The translations under genes were made by a program, and so were the position numbers. Shown here piece after piece: positions 4,390-32,958 of a stretch of DNA of 64,000 nucleotides (positions within the stretch are counted from its first letter, which is position 1; each line of letters starts with the position of its first letter). The notes under the pieces were generated by a model, which was given only the letters and a program-made list of their open reading frames with translations, did not search any database and was not told the DNA's origin. The DNA is from Quadrisphaera sp. DSM 44207 (lineage in GTDB: Bacteria; Actinomycetota; Actinomycetes; Actinomycetales; Quadrisphaeraceae), in contig NZ_FNKA01000002.1 in the NCBI RefSeq assembly GCF_900101335.1, positions 496,001-560,000 on the forward strand, read 5' to 3'.

Positions 4390-6059
4390 CGAGCAGCACC
4401 CCCAGCACCGGTCCCACCACCGGTCTCGGCGTCGAGGTCTCCGGCGCCGCCGAGGACGCCGTCCGCACCCGCCTGCCCTCCCTGCTCTCCGACCGCGTCG
4501 CGTCCCGGCTCGCGTCCGGTGACGCGACCCTGTGGGGCCCGGCGGCCGAGGAGGAGGCGTCGAAGCGGCTGGGGTGGGTGCACCTGCCCACCTCCTCCCG
4601 CCCGCTCGTGGAGCGGATCACCGCGCTGCGCGAGCAGCTGCGCGCCGAGGGCGTCGACCACGTCGTGCTGTGCGGCATGGGCGGCTCCTCGCTCGCGCCC
4701 GAGGTGATCACGGCGACGGCCGGCGTGGAGCTGACGGTCCTCGACGGCACCGACCCCGACCAGGTCGCCCGCGCCCTGCACGACCGGCTCGAGCGCACGG
4801 TCGTCGTGGTCAGCAGCAAGTCCGGCTCCACCGTGGAGACCGACAGCCAGCGCCGGGCGCTGGAGGCCGCGATGACCGAGGCGGGCATCGACGCGAGGAG
4901 CCGCGTCGTCGTCGTCACCGACCCCGGCTCGCCGCTGCAGCAGGCCGCCACCGAGGCCGGCTACCGCGCCGTGATCGAGGCCGACCCGACCGTCGGGGGC
5001 CGCTACTCGGCGCTGACGGCGTTCGGGCTCGTGCCCTCCGGGCTGGCGGGCGCGGACGTCGGGGTCCTGCTGGAGGAGGCCGCCGCGGTCACCGAGGTGC
5101 TCGCCGCCGACGACCCGCTCAACCCCGCGCTCGTCCTCGGCGCCGCCCTCGGCGGCAGCGAGGGCCGCGACAAGGTCGTCGTCGTCGACGACGGCTCCGG
5201 GCTCGTCGGCTTCGGGGACTGGGCCGAGCAGCTGATCGCCGAGTCCACGGGCAAGGAGGGCACCGGCCTGCTCCCCGTCGTCGTCGCCTCCGCGGACGAC
5301 CCCGAGGTCCTCGACCCGCCCCCGGACGTGCTCGTGGTGCACCTGACGCGCTCCGTCTCCCCCGACTTCGCGCACCGCCCCGAGCGCGCCGAGGTGGCCG
5401 TGGCGGGCACCCTGGGCGCGCAGGTGCAGCTGTGGGAGCACGCCGTCGCCGTCGCCGGGAAGGTGCTGGGGATCAACCCCTTCGACCAGCCGGACGTCGA
5501 GAGCGCCAAGGCCGCTGCCCGCGGCCTGCTCGACGCGACGCCCGAGCCGGAGCCGGCGCAGCTGGTCGACGGCGCGATCGAGGTGCGCGCCACCCCCGGC
5601 CTGCTCGACGGCGTGAGCGACGCCGCGGGCGCGGTCGAGGCGCTGCTCGGGCGGCTGGACCCGCAGCGCGGCTACCTGGCGGTCATGGCCTACCTCGACC
5701 GCCTGGGCCACCCGGAGCTGGAGCGGGTGCGCCCGGCGCTCGCCCGGCGCACCGGGCGGCCGGTCACCTTCGGGTGGGGGCCGCGGTTCTTGCACTCCAC
5801 CGGCCAGTACCACAAGGGCGGGCCCGCCACGGGCGTGTACCTGCAGGTCACGGCCGCGCCGAGCGGCGACCTGGAGGTCCCCGGGCGGCCGTTCACCTTC
5901 GGGCAGCTGGTCAGCGCGCAGGCCGGCGGCGACGCCGCCGTGCTCGCCGACCACGGCCGTCCCGTGCTGCGCCTGCACCTGACCGACCGAGCTGCCGGCA
6001 CCGCCCAGCTGCTCGACCTGCTGGGGGTCGGGGCGGCGGAGGCGGGAGGCGCCTCGTGA
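4386..6059 (+). CDS. pgi: Glucose-6-phosphate isomerase
   Basis: Interconverts glucose-6-phosphate and fructose-6-phosphate, linking glycolysis to this pentose-phosphate operon. The 557-residue protein has two SIS-type domains: [12 protein letters not shown] at 96-107 and the phosphate-binding KSGSTVET at 145-152, with [10 protein letters not shown] near 290 and a C-terminal [14 protein letters not shown] segment. The family is the actinobacterial Pgi form related to the isomerase half of Tal-Pgi fusions, rather than the E. coli type. It starts with GTG overlapping the tal stop by 4 nt, and its own stop overlaps zwf the same way. Confidence 0.93.
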
Positions 6060-7603
6060 GCCGCGCGGGCGCGGACCCGCTCGTCGCGGCGAACCCGCTG
6101 CGCGACCCGCGCGACAAGCGCCTGGCCCGCATCGCCGGGCCCTGCGGCATGGTGCTGTTCGGCGTCACCGGCGACCTGGCGCGCAAGAAGCTCATGCCGG
6201 CGATCTACGACCTGGCCAACCGCGGCCTGCTGCCCCCGGGGTTCTCCCTCGTCGGCTTCGCCCGGCGCGACTGGGCCGAGCAGGACTTCGGCCGGGTCGT
6301 CTACGACGCGGTCCGCCAGCACGCCCGCACCCCGTTCCGGGAGGAGGTCTGGCAGAACCTCGCCGAGGGCTTCCGATTCGTGCCCGGTGAGTTCGACGAC
6401 CCGGCCGCGTTCGACAAGCTCGCCGAGACCGTCCTCCAGCTGGACGAGGAGCGGGGCACGGGCGGCAACCACGCCTTCTACCTCTCGATCCCGCCGCGCT
6501 TCTTCCCCGTGGTCACCGAGCAGCTGGAGAAGTCCGGGCTCGCGGCCCCCGTGGAGGGCCAGTGGCGGCGCGTGGTCATCGAGAAGCCGTTCGGCCACGA
6601 CCTGGAGAGCGCCCGGGAGCTGAACGCCGTGGTGGAGCGGGTCTTCCCGCCGGACTCGGTGTTCCGGATCGACCACTACCTGGGCAAGGAGACGGTCCAG
6701 AACCTCCTGGCGCTGCGGTTCGCCAACGAGATGTTCGAGCCGATCTGGAACTCCAGCCACGTCGACCACGTGCAGATCACCATGGCCGAGGACATCGGCA
6801 TCGGCGGCCGGGCCGGGTACTACGACGGCATCGGCGCGGCGCGCGACGTGATCCAGAACCACCTGCTGCAGCTGCTGGCGCTGACCGCCATGGAGGAGCC
6901 GGTCTCCTTCTCCGCCCGCGACCTGCGCGCGGAGAAGGAGAAGGTGCTCTCCGCGGTCCGGCTGCCCGCCGACCTCGACGCCGGCACCGCCCGCGGGCAG
7001 TACGCGCCGGGCTGGCAGGGCAGCGAGCCGGTGCGCGGCTACCTGGAGGAGGAGGGGATCCCCGACGACTCGGCCACCGAGACCTACGCGGCGGTGACCC
7101 TGGAGATCGACACCCGGCGGTGGGCCGGGGTGCCGTTCTACCTGCGCACCGGCAAGCGCCTGGGCCGGCGCGTCACCGAGATCGCGATCGTCTTCAAGCC
7201 GGCGCCGCACCTGCCGTTCGAGTCCACGGCGACCGAGGAGCTGGGCCGCAACGCCCTGGTGATCCGCGTGCAGCCGGACGAGGGCGTCACCCTCCGGTTC
7301 GGGTCGAAGGTGCCGGGCACCGCCATGGAGGTCCGCGACGTCACGATGGACTTCGGGTACGGCAACGCCTTCACCGAGTCCTCCCCCGAGGCGTACGAGC
7401 GCCTGATCCTCGACGTGCTGCTCGGCGACCCGCCGCTGTTCCCCCGCCACGAGGAGGTCGAGCTGTCCTGGCGGATCCTCGACCCGGTCATCGAGCACTG
7501 GGCCGGGCAGGGTCAGCCGCAGCCGTACCCGTCCGGGACCTGGGGGCCGGCGTCGGCCGACGAGATGCTGGCCCGCACCGGCCGCACCTGGAGGCGGCCG
7601 TGA
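6056..7603 (+). CDS. zwf: Glucose-6-phosphate 1-dehydrogenase (canonical copy)
   Basis: Oxidises glucose-6-phosphate to 6-phosphogluconolactone with reduction of NADP+, opening the oxidative pentose-phosphate pathway. It is 515 residues long. The nucleotide-binding GVTGDLARKKL lies at 36-46, EKPFG at 176-180, and the active-site RIDHYLGK at 204-211 with catalytic His207 and substrate Lys211 intact. GTG start overlaps the pgi stop by 4 nt; its stop overlaps opcA by 4 nt. A divergent paralogue with a changed motif lies at 29705-31081, so this is the copy expected to carry flux. Confidence 0.97.
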   Translation: MSRAGADPLVAANPLRDPRDKRLARIAGPCGMVLFGVTGDLARKKLMPAIYDLANRGLLPPGFSLVGFARRDWAEQDFGRVVYDAVRQHARTPFREEVWQNLAEGFRFVPGEFDDPAAFDKLAETVLQLDEERGTGGNHAFYLSIPPRFFPVVTEQLEKSGLAAPVEGQWRRVVIEKPFGHDLESARELNAVVERVFPPDSVFRIDHYLGKETVQNLLALRFANEMFEPIWNSSHVDHVQITMAEDIGIGGRAGYYDGIGAARDVIQNHLLQLLALTAMEEPVSFSARDLRAEKEKVLSAVRLPADLDAGTARGQYAPGWQGSEPVRGYLEEEGIPDDSATETYAAVTLEIDTRRWAGVPFYLRTGKRLGRRVTEIAIVFKPAPHLPFESTATEELGRNALVIRVQPDEGVTLRFGSKVPGTAMEVRDVTMDFGYGNAFTESSPEAYERLILDVLLGDPPLFPRHEEVELSWRILDPVIEHWAGQGQPQPYPSGTWGPASADEMLARTGRTWRRP

Positions 7604-8793
7604 TCGTCGACATGCCGAACACGTCGACCGGGGCGATCGCCAAGCGGCTGGTCGACCTGCGCGAGACCGGCGGGGCGGTCGCCCTGGGGCGGGTGCTCAC
7701 CCTCGTCGTCCCCACGGACGACGAGCGGGCCGAGGCGGCCATCGCCGCCGCCAACGAGGCCAGCCGGGAGCACCCGTGCCGGATCATCGTCCTGGCCCGC
7801 GGCGAGCGGCGGGGCACCATCCGCCTCGACGGCCAGATCCGCGTCGGCGGTGACGCCGGCGCCAGCGAGGTCGTGGTGCTGCGCAGCTACGGCCCGCTGT
7901 CCGACCACGCGGACTCGATGGTCATCCCGCTGCTGCTGCCCGACGCCCCCGTGGTGACCTGGTGGCCCGGCGAGCCGCCGGAGGACCCCGCCGCCGACCC
8001 CATCGGGGCGATGGGCCAGCGCCGCATCACCGACTCCGCGGCGAGCGCGGACCCGCCGGCCGCCCTGCGGCGCCTGGCCGCCTGCCACGGCCCCGGTGAC
8101 ACCGACTTCGCCTGGACCCGGCTGACCCTGTGGCGCGGCTACCTGGCCGCGGCGCTGGACGGGAGGCCCGAGGAGCCGATCACCGCGGCGGCGGTGACCG
8201 GCGCCGTCGACAGCCCCAGCAGCGACCTGCTCGCGGCCTGGCTGACCTGGGCGCTCGAGTGCCCGGTCACGCGGGTGAACGCCGATCCCGGCAGCGGCAT
8301 CATCGGGGTGCGCCTGGAGCGGGCGTCCGGCGCGGTGGAGCTGGTGCGCCCCGACGGCCGCGTCGCCACCCTCACCCAGCCCGGGCAGCCGGACCGCCGC
8401 CTCACCCTGGCGCGGCGCGCGGACTCCGAGTGCCTCGCCGAGGAGCTGCGGCGCCTGGACCCGGACGACATCTTCGGCGACGTCGTCACCCGGGGCCTGC
8501 CGGCCCTGGAGGAGGAGGACGCCATCGGCGTCGACGAGGCGCAGCGGCGCGGCGCCATCACCCCTGCCGAGCAGGTGCGCCAGCGCGGGGAGGAGCTGGA
8601 CGCCCACGCCGCCGAGGTCGCCCGCGGCATCGCCGGGGCCGAGCCCAGCGGCATCGAGCTCGAGGGGCCCAGCGGCCCCCTCGACGAGCAGGGCCGGCCC
8701 GCGGGCGAGGGCCACCGTCCCCAGGACGACGCGGTCGCGTCACCGGGGGGCGACCGGTCCGGGGAGTCCGGCGAGTCCGCGGACGCCCCGTGA
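7600..8793 (+). CDS. opcA: Glucose-6-phosphate dehydrogenase assembly/activator protein OpcA
   Basis: OpcA is required for full activity of glucose-6-phosphate dehydrogenase in actinobacteria and cyanobacteria, and typically sits directly after zwf, as here. The 397-residue product starts VIVDMPNTSTGAIAKRL, has the family's HPCRIIVLARG segment near residue 65, and the VVTWWPGEPPEDP segment near 120. The last 80 or so residues are acidic and low-complexity, with no recognisable domain. GTG start and stop each overlap the neighbours by 4 nt. Confidence 0.93.
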   Translation: MIVDMPNTSTGAIAKRLVDLRETGGAVALGRVLTLVVPTDDERAEAAIAAANEASREHPCRIIVLARGERRGTIRLDGQIRVGGDAGASEVVVLRSYGPLSDHADSMVIPLLLPDAPVVTWWPGEPPEDPAADPIGAMGQRRITDSAASADPPAALRRLAACHGPGDTDFAWTRLTLWRGYLAAALDGRPEEPITAAAVTGAVDSPSSDLLAAWLTWALECPVTRVNADPGSGIIGVRLERASGAVELVRPDGRVATLTQPGQPDRRLTLARRADSECLAEELRRLDPDDIFGDVVTRGLPALEEEDAIGVDEAQRRGAITPAEQVRQRGEELDAHAAEVARGIAGAEPSGIELEGPSGPLDEQGRPAGEGHRPQDDAVASPGGDRSGESGESADAP

Positions 8794-9563
8794 GCCCCGC
8801 GCCGGTGGAGGTCCTCACCTCCCCCGACCGCGCGTCCCTGGCGGCCGCCGTCGCCGGCCGCCTGGTCACGCGCCTGGTCGATGTGCAGGCCCGGCGCGGA
8901 CGGGCGGGTGTGGTGCTCACCGGCGGCACGGTGGGCACCGAGGCGCTGCGCCAGGTCGCGGCCAGCCCCGCCGTGCGCTCCGTCGACTGGTCGCGCGCGG
9001 ACCTGTGGTGGGGCGACGAGCGCTTCCTGCCCGACGGGGACGGCGAGCGCAACGCCACGCAGGCGCGCGAGGCGCTGCTCGACGCGCTCACCCCCCTCGG
9101 GCTCGACCCAGCCCGCGTGCACGCCATGCCGGCCAGCGACGGCCCCGACGGCGACGACCCGGACGCCGCGGCCCGGCGCTACGCGCAGGAGCTCGCGCGC
9201 GTCGCCCGCGAGGCGGGCGTGCCGGGCCCGGTGCCCGTCTTCGACGTCCTGCTGCTCGGGGTCGGCCCGGACGGGCACGTGGCCTCGCTCTTCCCCGGCC
9301 ACCCGGGGGCCGAGGAGGCCGGGGAGCCCGTGGTGGCGGTGCGCGACGCGCCGAAGCCGCCGCCGACGCGCCTGTCCCTGACGATGCCCGTCATCACCAC
9401 GGCCGAGGAGGTCTGGTGCGTGGTCTCCGGCGCCGACAAGGCGGACGCCGCCGCTCGGGCCCTCGCCGGGCCGGGCGCGCTGCCCGCCAGCCGGGCCAGG
9501 GGCGTTCAGCGCACGCTGTGGCTCGTGGACGCCGACGCGGCCGGCGGGCTGCCGCCCGCCTGA
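8790..9563 (+). CDS. pgl: 6-phosphogluconolactonase
   Basis: Hydrolyses 6-phosphogluconolactone, the product of zwf, to 6-phosphogluconate. The 257-residue protein has the DevB-family motifs LTGGTVGTEAL, WWGDERFLP and GVGPDGHVASLFPGHP. Start is GTG overlapping the opcA stop by 4 nt. It is last in the operon and is followed by a perfect hairpin shared with the convergent rbpA gene. Confidence 0.95.
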   Translation: MSPAPVEVLTSPDRASLAAAVAGRLVTRLVDVQARRGRAGVVLTGGTVGTEALRQVAASPAVRSVDWSRADLWWGDERFLPDGDGERNATQAREALLDALTPLGLDPARVHAMPASDGPDGDDPDAAARRYAQELARVAREAGVPGPVPVFDVLLLGVGPDGHVASLFPGHPGAEEAGEPVVAVRDAPKPPPTRLSLTMPVITTAEEVWCVVSGADKADAAARALAGPGALPASRARGVQRTLWLVDADAAGGLPPA

Positions 9564-25793: not shown

Positions 25794-26228
25794 TCAGGCG
25801 TCCTGGGTCTCGGCGCGGTCGTGGCTGAGGGCGCTGCCGGAGCAGGTGTCCAGGCCCTCGACGAGCGCGACGAGGTCGGCGTCCCCGGCGAAGCGGTCGG
25901 TGTGGACCCTGCGGATCTTCTCGGGCAGGTCCGGGTCGGGGTCGTCGACGATGTCGAAGGAGACCATGTCGGCCACGAGCGGCAGGCCGAGCTCGTCGGT
26001 CCTGCGGTGGGTCGGGTGCAGCATGTACTCGACGTAGCCGGGGAGGTCCTCGAGGACGAACGTCGCTCCGACGTCGTACGACCCACCGACGTCGGGGCCG
26101 ACGACGAAGGACGTCACGGACTCGATCTCCTCGCCCTGCCTGCGCAGGTTCGCCATGGCGGCGTCGACCTGGTCCCGGGCGGCGTCCGAGCGCAGCGAGA
26201 AGCGGATGGTGTGGTAGATCAGGGCCAC
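25794..26228 (-). CDS. Dabb-family (stress-responsive alpha/beta barrel) protein
   Basis: Short ferredoxin-like protein of the Dabb type: IYHTIRFSLR at the start, a central VTSFVVGPDVGGSYDVGATFVLEDL, and YVEYMLHPTHRRT, the usual strand-helix signature. 144 residues from GTG 26228; alternatives are GTG at 26234 or 26237 and, less likely, 26285. Members include olivetolic-acid-cyclase-like enzymes and uncharacterised stress proteins; no specific activity can be assigned. It lies between the Rieske remnant and the MFS gene, same strand. Confidence 0.8.
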   Translation of the reverse strand: MALIYHTIRFSLRSDAARDQVDAAMANLRRQGEEIESVTSFVVGPDVGGSYDVGATFVLEDLPGYVEYMLHPTHRRTDELGLPLVADMVSFDIVDDPDPDLPEKIRRVHTDRFAGDADLVALVEGLDTCSGSALSHDRAETQDA

Positions 26229-26290
26229 CCCCACCACCCCCCGGATCGCGGTCCGTCCTCGCCGTCCCGCCCTGTGGGGGGCCACGGGGC

Positions 26291-29704: not shown

Positions 29705-31081
29705 TCACAGCGCCGGGAAGCCCTCGCGCGGCGCCGGCCCGTCGCTGCCGGCGGGGTACCCCTCCAGCGGCACCTCGCCGGCGCGCCAGGCGGCCAGCAC
29801 GGGCTCGAGGATGCGCCAGCACTCCTCGACGTTGTCGCCGCGCACCGACAGGGTGGCGTCCCCGGCCAGCACCCCGGCGAGCACCTCGCCGTAGGGCAGC
29901 AGCTCCGAGGCGCCCAGCTCCGCGGCCAGCTGCGCGCCCTCGAGGTCGTAGGGGTCGCCCTCGCTGTTCACCGCGAGGTCGAGGGCCACCCGGTCCGGGG
30001 AGAAGCCGAGCCGCAGCCGGCTCGGCGGCGGGGTGCCCCGCAGGCCGGCCGGCACGTGCGGCACGTCCGCGAAGGTGACCACCGCCTCCTGCCGCGGGGA
30101 GCCGAGGGCCTTGCCGGAGCGCAGCCGGAACGGCACCCCGGCCCAGCGCCAGCTGTCGACGTGCAGGACCACCTCGGCCAGGGTCTCGGTGCCGCGGTCG
30201 GGGTCCACGCCGGGCTCGGCGGCGTAGTCGGGCAGGTCCCGCTCCCCGATGCGCCCCGCCGTGTAGCGGGCGCGGCGGCTGGCGCGCTGCGGCGGCCCGG
30301 CCAGCCGCGTCGCGCGCAGCACCTCCCCCTTGCGGTCGCGCAGGTCGCGCTCGCCGAGGGTGGACGGCGGGTCCATGGCCAGCAGCGCCATCACCTGCAG
30401 CAGGTGGCTCTGCAGCATGTCCACGAGCGCGCCGGCGGCGTCGTAGTAGCCGGCCCGCCCCTCCAGCGCGAGGTCCTCGTCGAAGACGACGTCGACGCGG
30501 GCCACGTGCGCCGCGCTCCACAGCGGCTCGAAGATCCGGTTGGCGAAGCGCAGGCCCAGGGTGTTGAGCACGGTCGACATGCCCAGGAAGTGGTCCACGC
30601 GGTGCACGCGGTCCTCCGGGGCGATCGCCGCCACGACCTCGTTCAGGTGCCGCGCAGAGGCCAGGTCGGTGCCGAACGGCTTCTCGAGCACGAGGCGGAC
30701 GTCGTCCGGGGCACCCGCGCGCCGCAGCTCCTCGCAGGCGCGCACCGTGACGGCGGGCGGGAGCGCGAAGTAGACCGCGACCGGCCCCTGGCACGAGGCC
30801 AGCAGGGCGCGCAGCTGCTCCCCGTCGGTCACGTCGGCGCGCACGTAGCGCGCGGCGCCCGCGACGGCCGCCGGCGCGCCGCCCGGTGCGCCGGCGAAGG
30901 CCTCGTGCACCCGCGAGCGCCAGCGGGCGTCGTCCCAGTCCTCCGTGCCGGCGCCGACCAGCTGCAGCGGCTCGGCGCGTCCGGCGGCGAGGAGGCTGCC
31001 CAGGCCGGGCAGCAGCAGGCGCGCGGTCAGGTCGCCGGTGGCGCCGAGCACGAGCAGCGTGGCGACGGGAGCAGGGCCCAT
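29705..31081 (-). CDS. Glucose-6-phosphate dehydrogenase-like paralogue with altered active-site motif
   Basis: 458-residue member of the G6PDH family: dinucleotide motif GATGDLTARLLLP at 13-25, EKPFG near 138, and a C-terminal half colinear with zwf (RFANRIFEPLW, EGRAGYYD, DMLQSHLLQVMALLAM). The canonical DHYLGK is DHFLGM here: the catalytic His is kept, but the substrate-phosphate Lys is Met. Activity on another sugar (phosphate) or a lost activity are both possible. It is divergent from a GH15 glycosidase gene and not near another opcA, which argues for a role separate from zwf. Confidence 0.88.
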   Translation of the reverse strand: MGPAPVATLLVLGATGDLTARLLLPGLGSLLAAGRAEPLQLVGAGTEDWDDARWRSRVHEAFAGAPGGAPAAVAGAARYVRADVTDGEQLRALLASCQGPVAVYFALPPAVTVRACEELRRAGAPDDVRLVLEKPFGTDLASARHLNEVVAAIAPEDRVHRVDHFLGMSTVLNTLGLRFANRIFEPLWSAAHVARVDVVFDEDLALEGRAGYYDAAGALVDMLQSHLLQVMALLAMDPPSTLGERDLRDRKGEVLRATRLAGPPQRASRRARYTAGRIGERDLPDYAAEPGVDPDRGTETLAEVVLHVDSWRWAGVPFRLRSGKALGSPRQEAVVTFADVPHVPAGLRGTPPPSRLRLGFSPDRVALDLAVNSEGDPYDLEGAQLAAELGASELLPYGEVLAGVLAGDATLSVRGDNVEECWRILEPVLAAWRAGEVPLEGYPAGSDGPAPREGFPAL

Positions 31082-31155
31082 CTCTCCAGGCTGCTCGCCC
31101 CGGCGCGGGCGCGCACCCCGTGGCCGGCGCGAGCGCGCCGGCCACGGCGGGCAGG

Positions 31156-32958
31156 ATGAGGCGCGTGCACGCTCCCATCGAGGACTACGCCCTGATCGGG
31201 GACTGCCACACGGCGGCCCTGGTCAGCCGCTCGGGCAGCATCGACTGGCTGTGCCTGCCCCGCTTCGACTCCCCGGCCGTCTTCTCCGCCCTGCTGGGCA
31301 CCGAGGAGCACGGCCGCTGGCTGCTGGCCCCCGCCGGGGAGGTCCGCTCGGTGCAGCGCTCCTACGTGGGGGACAGCTTCGTGCTCAGCACGCGCTACGA
31401 GGTGGACGGCGGCAGCGTCGAGGTGGTCGACGCGATGCCGCTGCGCGACCGCCGCGCCGACGTCATCCGGCGCGTGCGGGGCGTCTCCGGCACGGTGCGG
31501 ATGCGGCAGGAGTACGTGGTCCGCTTCGGCTACGGCGACGTGCTGCCGTGGGTGCTGCGCGTGCCGGAGGAGGAGCGCGCGCTGCTGGCGTGCGCCGGGC
31601 CGGACGCCGTCCTGCTGCGCACCGACGTGCCGCTGCCGCGGCCGCAGGGCAACCGCCACGTCGGGGAGTTCGACGTGCGCGCGGGCGAGGTCGTGGACCT
31701 GGTGATGACCTGGTACCCCTCCCACCGCCCGGCGCCACCGCCGCTGGACCGCGACCGGCGCCTGGCGGAGACCGTGCGGTGGTGGCAGGACTGGGCGGAC
31801 CGGCGCGAGGACGGCGGGCCGTTCGCCGCCGCCGTCGCCCGCTCCCTGCTCGTGCTGCGGGCCCTGACCCACGAGGACACCGGCGGCATCGTCGCCGCCG
31901 CGACGACGTCCCTGCCGGAGGAGCCGGGCGGGGTGCGCAACTGGGACTACCGGTACTGCTGGCTGCGCGACGCGGCGCTGACGCTGGAGACGCTGATCAG
32001 CCACGGGTACTCCGAGGAGGCGCGCGAGTGGCGGGACTGGCTGCTGCGCGCCGTCGCGGGCGACCCCGAGGACGTGCAGATCATGTACGGCGTCGCCGGG
32101 GAACGGCACCTGCCCGAGCGCGAGCTGGGGCACCTGCCCGGCTACGAGGGCTCCCGGCCGGTGCGGGTGGGCAACGGCGCCTTCACCCAGTACCAGGCCG
32201 ACGTCATCGGGGAGGTCCTCGTCGCGCTGGACGCCGCCCGGCGCGACGGCATCGCCGAGGACCCCTTCTCGTGGCCGCTGCAGCGGGCGCTGCTGGACTT
32301 CGTGGAGCGCAACTGGGACCGGGCGGACTCGGGCATCTGGGAGATGCGCGGGCCGGAGCAGCACTTCACCCACTCGCGGGTGATGGTGTGGGCGGCCCTC
32401 GACCGCGGCGTGCGGGCCGTGCGCTCCTTCGGCCTCGACGGCCCCGTCGACCGGTGGCAGGCGCTGCGCGACCGCGTGCGCGACGAGGTCCTCCAGCGCG
32501 GCGTGGACCCGCAGCGCGGCTGCTTCACGCAGCGCTACGGCTCGCGGGAGGTCGACGCCTCGCTGCTGGTGCTGCCCCAGGTCGGCTTCGTCGCCCCCGA
32601 CGACCCGGTGATGCTCGCCACCGTGCGCGCCATCGAGGAGGACCTGCTGCAGGACGGCCTCGTGCTGCGCTACCGCACGCACGCCGCCCCCGACGGGCTG
32701 CCGCCCGGCGAGCACCCCTTCCTCGCCTGCTCGTTCTGGCTCGCCGAGCAGTACGCGCTGTCGGGCCGGGTCGAGGACGCCCGCGCGCTCCTGGAGCGGC
32801 TGGTCTCGCTCTGCAACGACGTCGGGCTGCTGTCGGAGGAGTACGACACCACCGCGCGGCGCCAGCTCGGCAACACCCCGCAGGCGCTCTCCCACCTCGC
32901 GCTGGTGCGGGCGGTGCAGGCCCTGCGGTGCGCCGACCCGCAGCGGCTGCTGCGCTGA
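31156..32958 (+). CDS. Glycoside hydrolase family 15 protein (glucoamylase/trehalase type)
   Basis: Probable cytosolic GH15 (alpha,alpha)6-barrel enzyme; in actinobacteria this group includes GH15 trehalases and glucoamylase-like proteins. 600 residues, no signal peptide. The N-terminal IEDYALIGDCHTAALVSRSG-type segment with IDWLCLPRFDSP, then WDYRYCWLRDAALTLE near 265 and the C-terminal FLACSFWLAEQY and LSEEYDT segments (catalytic Glu region) are typical. ATG 31156 is chosen; GTG 31165 is equally possible. Glucose released from trehalose or glucan would feed this region's glucose-phosphate enzymes. Confidence 0.9.
   Translation: MRRVHAPIEDYALIGDCHTAALVSRSGSIDWLCLPRFDSPAVFSALLGTEEHGRWLLAPAGEVRSVQRSYVGDSFVLSTRYEVDGGSVEVVDAMPLRDRRADVIRRVRGVSGTVRMRQEYVVRFGYGDVLPWVLRVPEEERALLACAGPDAVLLRTDVPLPRPQGNRHVGEFDVRAGEVVDLVMTWYPSHRPAPPPLDRDRRLAETVRWWQDWADRREDGGPFAAAVARSLLVLRALTHEDTGGIVAAATTSLPEEPGGVRNWDYRYCWLRDAALTLETLISHGYSEEAREWRDWLLRAVAGDPEDVQIMYGVAGERHLPERELGHLPGYEGSRPVRVGNGAFTQYQADVIGEVLVALDAARRDGIAEDPFSWPLQRALLDFVERNWDRADSGIWEMRGPEQHFTHSRVMVWAALDRGVRAVRSFGLDGPVDRWQALRDRVRDEVLQRGVDPQRGCFTQRYGSREVDASLLVLPQVGFVAPDDPVMLATVRAIEEDLLQDGLVLRYRTHAAPDGLPPGEHPFLACSFWLAEQYALSGRVEDARALLERLVSLCNDVGLLSEEYDTTARRQLGNTPQALSHLALVRAVQALRCADPQRLLR

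Follow-up and report, generated by a model that had tools for sequence, protein, structure and literature searches.

A branch of the glucose-6-phosphate dehydrogenase family with a relaxed phosphate anchor, possibly acting on an unphosphorylated sugar

What does a member of the glucose-6-phosphate dehydrogenase (G6PDH) family oxidise when the lysine that contacts the phosphate of the substrate has been replaced? The question is raised by a gene in the window, i.e., the whole 64-kb stretch of Quadrisphaera sp. DSM 44207 DNA analysed here, which stands back to back with a glycosidase gene:

29705-31081, minus strand: target G6PDH-family protein, 458 aa, of the NCBIfam NF009492 (PRK12853) branch
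31082-31155, no strand: gap of 74 bp that separates the two divergent start codons and contains a perfect inverted repeat (31118-31147)
31156-32958, plus strand: GH15 glycosidase with a TREH_N domain (trehalase-like), the divergent partner (PF00723 295 bits, PF19291 60.7 bits)

The open frame of the target has an ATG start and a GC3 of 98.5%. Its product matches G6PD_N (106.9 bits) and G6PD_C (228.9 bits), both above the Pfam cut-offs, and so belongs to the G6PDH superfamily; within it, NF009492 claims the protein at 646.7 bits (cut-off 428), and TIGR00871, the Zwf equivalog, stays below its cut-off (322.7 bits against 400.6). The top structural matches of its AlphaFold2 model (mean pLDDT 95.0, 74 sequences) are G6PDHs over the whole length, with a TM of 0.88 to L. 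mesenteroides 1e77 in Foldseek and, in VIA-align, a Z of 42.4 and an rmsd of 2.2 over 453 aligned residues for Z. mobilis 7xhl; the matches listed by both programs are mostly G6PDHs, and the absence of other folds among them is no evidence. With canonical G6PDHs (Zwf; EC 1.1.1.49/363/388; L. mesenteroides 1dpg/1e77, human 2bhl, Z. mobilis 7xhl), the target thus has the whole-length fold, the catalytic dyad, EKPxG and SGK in common, at 25-38% identity in structural alignments, but it is without the ligands Lys205, Tyr202 and Arg365 (human numbering) and without the NADP arginine.

The available part of PMC11448927 names His201, Tyr202, Lys205, Arg365 and Gln395 as the residues of human G6PD that bind the phosphate of the substrate, and Asp200-His263 as its catalytic dyad. 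The corresponding positions of the target, together with those of the cofactor site, are:

30578-30595, minus strand: DHFLGM, residues 163-168, with D163 (Asp of the dyad), H164 (human His201), F165 (human Tyr202) and M168 (human Lys205)
30671-30685, minus strand: EKPFG, residues 133-137, with K134 (human Lys171; in 117/117 rows of the tree described below)
30404-30406, minus strand: H226, the general base (human His263; 117/117 rows)
30110-30112, minus strand: K324 of SGK (117/117 rows), equated with human Lys360 from motif and spacing
30095-30097, minus strand: P329, at the place of the phosphate ligand Arg365 of the human enzyme, by gapless loop alignment, five residues past K324
30941-30946, minus strand: T46-E47, at the place of the arginine for the 2'-phosphate of NADP (E. 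coli R50, L. mesenteroides R46), by alignment and the available part of PMC4807051

The residues that characterise the superfamily, i.e., the Asp-His dyad, EKPxG and the SGK lysine, are all in place (D163, H226, K134, K324). A previous, sequence-only reading of this DNA had held that EKPFG is kept and DHYLGK replaced by DHFLGM, and both statements stand, RVDHFLGM (161-168) in the target standing opposite RIDHYLGK in the window's canonical zwf. It had also held that the catalytic histidine is retained, which is correct for H226, in a QSH motif; the histidine within DHFLGM, H164, is a phosphate ligand and not the general base. Tyr202 is replaced by F165, Lys205 by M168 and Arg365 by P329, so that, of the five phosphate ligands listed for the human enzyme, three are exchanged in the target (Gln395 unplaced); its dyad D163-H226 is intact. 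M168 occupies the position of the RIDHYLGK lysine, which is Lys in 51/51 non-branch relatives. An alignment with a PDB homologue has no gaps in the loop around 329, and P329 follows the SGK lysine by five residues, as Arg365 follows Lys360 in the human enzyme; since only 7 of the 17 canonical rows are basic here, we consider site 329 a helper rather than a strictly defining hallmark. F165 alone says little, Phe being found at this position in 4/17 canonical rows.

The cofactor loop reads GAGTEDW, with Thr46 at the place of the 2'-phosphate arginine and two acidic residues after it; arginine is found there in 15/17 canonical and 34/100 branch rows. According to the available part of PMC4807051, R50 together with K18 is the basis of the NADP preference of the E. 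coli G6PDH, and an actinobacterial group has no conserved R50 and two Asp behind that position. The target, as a member of the NF009492 branch ('PRK12853.1-3 glucose-6-phosphate dehydrogenase'), shares with this group the missing arginine and the acidic residues that follow, and the branch probably corresponds to group IV of that study, to which its available part assigns no kinetics, all enzymes of assigned preference being in groups I and II. Because the arginine is replaced by Thr46-Glu47, the coenzyme of the target is probably NAD+.

The target had been taken for a second G6PDH-like enzyme, and a canonical zwf is indeed found in the same window, followed by its own companions:

6047-7603, plus strand: canonical zwf (RIDHYLGK), start codon provisional, match at 6149-7558 (TIGR00871 654.6 bits, cut-off 400.6)
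7603-9560, plus strand: opcA followed by pgl, which accompany the canonical zwf and not the target (OpcA 252.1 bits, pgl TIGR01198 204.6 bits)

The genome as a whole, though, encodes five G6PDH-family genes (seven matches, three of which are pieces of one gene), i.e., the target, the canonical zwf, L008 (DHYLGK), L010 (DHFLGK) and L009 (DHALAM). The OpcA match is just below the NCBIfam cut-off of 256.25 but above that of Pfam, and the pgl match exceeds its cut-off of 124.45, so that the TIGR01198 model is able to detect an actinobacterial pgl. L009, at 130141-131523 of contig C2 (8145-9539 in its locus), is the second of the five with Met at the last motif position and so likewise has no lysine there; it is further from canonical G6PDHs than the target, remains under the cut-offs of all three NCBIfam G6PDH models that it matches, groups on the tree with the DHALGM proteins of genus g10 and has no relative of the gluconolactonase discussed below within its 19 kb locus. 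Near gnd, a motif expression for gluconokinase had no match, and three further frames tested beside it in this genome matched no family. The window also encodes, at 25794-26285 on the minus strand and downstream of uvrA, a small Dabb-domain protein (stress responsive A/B barrel, PF07876).

For the comparison across relatives, 146 matches were collapsed to 130 distinct ones, and a tree was built, with column 168 left out, from 117 proteins: 100 branch rows and 17 canonical rows, the latter drawn from 51 non-branch sequences, of which the other 34 stand off the tree and were classed as non-branch by scoring <300 bits to the target (L165, L168, L193 and L202 were omitted as duplicates). The tree separates the 17 canonical from the 100 branch rows. 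Within the branch, site 168 is K in 39 rows, M in 20, R in 14, T in 12, L in 8, V in 4 and E in 3, a distribution that takes no fewer than 16 state changes on the 117-row tree, and no fewer than 8 between basic and non-basic, whereas D163, H164, H226, K324 and K134 are unchanged in all 117 rows. This argues that no common constraint acts on the lysine in the branch, though the catalytic site is constrained. Two simple views of DHFLGM are ruled out by these data: it does not define a conserved clade, Met at 168 being scattered over at least five separate parts of the family tree, nor can it be set aside as a private mutation and therefore noise, as the site is variable over the entire branch and Met is private only inside the organism's own family, whose 13 genomes show T six times, K four times, R twice and M once. 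The target's neighbour on the tree is the T group (support 89, not starred), and the relatives nearest to the target have Thr at 168. A close branch member (E 1e-110 or better) was found in 63/248 genomes of an order-level sample. Three branch proteins (L196, L197 and L132) carry Glu at the position of Lys205 (DHVLAE, DHVLGE and DHFLGE, respectively), a charge reversal at the phosphate-binding site; no GH15 gene was found near them in the flanking DNA examined.

Has the phosphate site been lost, or has it been rebuilt from other residues? The strongest rival to a change of substrate is that the target is still a G6PDH, probably NAD+-linked, in which R272, R296, R330/K331 and H164 form a rebuilt pocket in place of Lys205, Tyr202 and Arg365, a reading that we take seriously but consider rather unlikely. 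The branch does have conserved basic residues of its own, R272 in 91, R296 in 80, R330 in 81 and K331 in 70 of its 100 rows, opposite which canonical rows have Q (16/17), S (17/17) and, at 330 and 331, mostly uncharged residues; H164 is invariant, site 168 is still Lys or Arg in 53/100 branch rows, and NCBIfam labels the branch a G6PDH equivalog. An invariant human phosphate ligand in H164 and three branch arginines (R272, R296, R330) that could hold a phosphate also count against a free sugar as substrate. On the other hand, the target itself has Q at 331 and P at 329, a gluconolactonase gene adjoins the DHALGM group, no recognised pgl is present where branch genes are the sole G6PDH type, and a canonical zwf is already present in 34 of the 36 genomes with a branch gene that were searched, out of 63 such genomes.

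Of 89 further columns in which 10-90 branch rows are basic, column 329 follows the state of 168 most closely, with 74% agreement as against 70% for the runner-up: it is basic in 0/47 branch rows with a non-basic 168, as opposed to 27/53 with a basic one, and residues 329-331 read PRQ in eight non-basic rows (target, L109, L134, L135, L141, L164, L166 and L167) and one basic row (L126). Kinship weakens this link, a phylogenetic test giving 6 independent pairs on well-supported branches, of which 1-3 are informative, all in the expected direction and not significant. When columns were scanned for basic residues gained where 168 is uncharged, the strongest differences appeared at 259, 361, 78, 251 and 220, none of which is a phosphate ligand to our knowledge, and we claim no compensation.

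A further branch-specific residue is D201 (97/100 branch rows, as against Ala in 14/17 canonical ones), which adjoins the invariant E202, presumably a contact of the sugar. It hints at altered sugar contacts and, together with the loss of phosphate ligands and the retention of catalytic residues, would suit an enzyme that has lost its 6-phosphate site and acts on something other than glucose, i.e., some other anionic or phosphorylated sugar, e.g., one that carries its phosphate at a different position, or an oligosaccharide end. We regard this as improbable; the GH15 and gluconolactonase neighbours point to glucose and gluconate instead. That the target is a decaying or regulatory paralogue of little activity, kept beside the canonical zwf, appears to us very improbable. 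Both genes do occur together in those 34/36 genomes, and the lost lysine, going by the title of Bautista 1995, is reportedly essential for catalysis in human G6PD, but the dyad, the EKPxG lysine and the SGK lysine are invariant over the 100 branch rows, the frame of the target is intact with its high GC3, and branch proteins are the sole G6PD_C genes in 14 genomes of genus g10.

The neighbourhood bears on the substrate from another side. The target is divergent from the GH15 gene, as had been noted before, the ATG of the latter at 31156 lying 74 bp off. The repeat at 31118-31147 has 14-base arms and a 2-base spacer and is one of five such places in the window when arms of at least 12 and spacers of at most 6 bases are considered; it is a possible candidate operator for the target and the GH15 gene. 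The nearest NCBIfam model to the GH15 protein is the trehalase model NF041084 (trehalase_H1_Arch), whose cut-off of 820 it does not reach (399.5 bits), and a PDB sequence search with it returned only two repeat-protein matches.

When neighbouring genes were clustered by blastp, no recognisable GH15 cluster was seen among the 28 clusters listed; the link was found by targeted tblastn (match ends within 477 bp), with a GH15 gene directly upstream of 44/100 branch rows, the two genes being divergent in 29 and co-directional in 15 (e.g., L119, L123, L131, L138, L192 and L195), and at 0/51 non-branch loci in the flanking DNA examined. The other 56/100 branch rows have none, in flanks that often extend only ~1.5 kb per side. 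Two of the 100 rows have <1400 bases of upstream sequence; over the other 98, GH15 adjacency is seen in 16/39 rows with K at 168, 8/13 with R, 6/12 with T, 10/19 with M, 4/8 with L, 0/4 with V and 0/3 with E, the non-basic rows amounting to 20/46. Adjacency is thus about equal in Lys/Arg and non-basic members, so that the lysine alone is no marker of a change of substrate, and the GH15 link, if it is informative on the substrate, speaks for the branch and not for Met as such. The beta anomer of glucose is the form oxidised by G6PDHs. GH15 trehalases are thought to be inverting (PMC10969515, in its available part), in which case glucose would be released as the beta anomer.

Branch genes without a canonical G6PDH are found in genus g10, sampled here by 57 genomes. 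A G6PD_C gene is present in 14 of them, one in each, and HYLGK in none. Six of these carriers have genes with DHFLGM (three), DHFLGL (one) or DHFLNL (two), all with EKPIG and a divergent GH15 gene; one (G251) has DHFLGK and no adjoining GH15 gene, with a short GH15 gene on another contig; and seven have DHALGM, each with an adjoining, same-strand SMP-30/gluconolactonase gene (tblastn, 7/7), which lies downstream in six, judged by frames, and matches PF08450 at 227-234 bits in the two tested. At L171-L177 / L184-L190, the pair of DHALGM and SMP-30 genes is flanked on one side by a glycerol-3-phosphate dehydrogenase-like gene and on the other by a phenylacetate-degradation-like cluster (flanks named by eye). 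GH15 genes as such are no marker in this genus, as 55/57 genomes have them, mostly with long frames of >840 aa; a short type of 591-707 aa, scoring >222 bits, is found in 8/57, namely the seven carriers of DHFL-type genes and one genome without a G6PD_C gene (G269), and the Fisher p of 3e-8 is to be read with the fact that the short/long split was chosen after the table had been seen.

The remaining 43/57 g10 genomes have no G6PDH C-terminal domain at all, which suggests that the oxidative entry to the pentose phosphate pathway has been lost in most of the genus. We know of two 6-phosphogluconolactonase families, TIGR01198 and PF10282. In g10, TIGR01198 is over its cut-off in 0/57 genomes, with weaker matches in 41, and PF10282 is found in 2/57, neither a carrier. 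The weak pgl matches in 12/14 carriers all have glucosamine-6-phosphate deaminase models as their best, over the cut-offs of those models in 10, and carriers G106 and G195 have no such weak match; resolving these matches removed one doubt and leaves the standing of the readings unchanged. OpcA, searched together with 6PGD in 10 genomes, was found in 0/4 from g10 as opposed to 6/6 others.

Gluconokinase, in turn, is over its cut-off in 12/13 carriers of non-basic genes, compared with 19/43 non-carriers (p 0.003, kinship ignored), and in 12/14 when all carriers are taken (p 0.012), the two carriers without it being the single Lys carrier (0/1) and the DHFLGL carrier. G106 has gnd, gntK and gntP, the last coding for a gluconate symporter of GntP type, as direct neighbours. 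We also found gnd in G195 and in G036, which has no G6PD_C gene, so that gnd may there serve gluconate; G018 has neither. 6-Phosphogluconolactone hydrolyses spontaneously too, and with gnd present both G106 and G195 could therefore pass glucose 6-phosphate through the branch enzyme.

From the residues, the tree, the neighbours and the presence and absence of genes, we infer substrate, coenzyme and pathway as follows. The target has, in our estimate, an even chance of being a working, probably NAD+-linked dehydrogenase of G6PDH fold that acts on an unphosphorylated aldose, likeliest beta-D-glucose, in a branch freed from the 6-phosphate; with no phosphate left to grip, the position of Lys205 would be open to exchange there. 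The D163-H226 dyad, whose residues are kept, would take the proton of the C1 hydroxyl, and the hydride would pass to the dinucleotide. The GH15 enzyme next to it, presumably inverting, may supply the beta-D-glucose; oxidation would yield the aldonolactone, to be hydrolysed spontaneously or by an SMP-30 lactonase, and gluconate would then be converted by gluconokinase to 6-phosphogluconate. More tentatively, and with somewhat more doubt than belief, we propose that the branch labelled G6PDH consists of NAD+-dependent dehydrogenases of unphosphorylated sugar, which together with GH15, SMP-30 and gluconokinase form an "oxidise first, phosphorylate later" route to 6-phosphogluconate; in one genus that has no canonical G6PDH, this route would substitute for the oxidative entry to the pentose phosphate pathway. 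The suggestion of the sequence-only reading, that the enzyme might oxidise a non-phosphorylated or different sugar, is thereby favoured indirectly, by a site 168 free to vary with catalysis kept, by the GH15 and gluconolactonase neighbours and by a genus with neither canonical G6PDH nor recognised pgl, and the equal GH15 adjacency of Lys/Arg members counts against it.

Human H6PD is a G6PDH-fold enzyme that oxidises free glucose too. This protein, H6PD / GDH-6PGL (8em2), has the fold in common with the target (Z 32.0, 427 residues aligned), which differs from it by an identity of only 25% and by having no fused lactonase domain. The same logic, from beta-glucose over gluconolactone to 6-phosphogluconate, is proposed for methanotrophs in the available part of PMC8062543, with glucose 1-dehydrogenase and gluconokinase; the dehydrogenase of that route is an SDR, as are, by the same source, the bacterial glucose 1-dehydrogenases (EC 1.1.1.47) so named, whereas the target is a G6PDH-family protein and not an SDR. 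Already known are the family and its annotation as G6PDH; in the literature searched (titles and abstract openings, with most subscription journals outside), we met no actinobacterial G6PDH-family enzyme acting on free glucose and nothing for PRK12853 with G6PDH, nor any account of the relaxed phosphate anchor, of the links to GH15 and gluconolactonase genes or of the genus without canonical G6PDH.

If the proposal is true, proteins in about a quarter of the order's sampled genomes (the 63/248 with a close branch member) carry a wrong EC number, metabolic models built on them gain a false entry to the pentose phosphate pathway or a false source of NADPH, and the branch would be a natural case of a strict sugar-phosphate enzyme that lost its phosphate handle and kept its chemistry. 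As a ready test set, the branch offers natural variants with K, R, T, M, L, V or E at a single site. In the available part of the K. radiotolerans genome paper, gluconolactonase and gluconate kinase are listed and a glucose dehydrogenase is missing; a branch enzyme, if carried by this organism, would fill that place.
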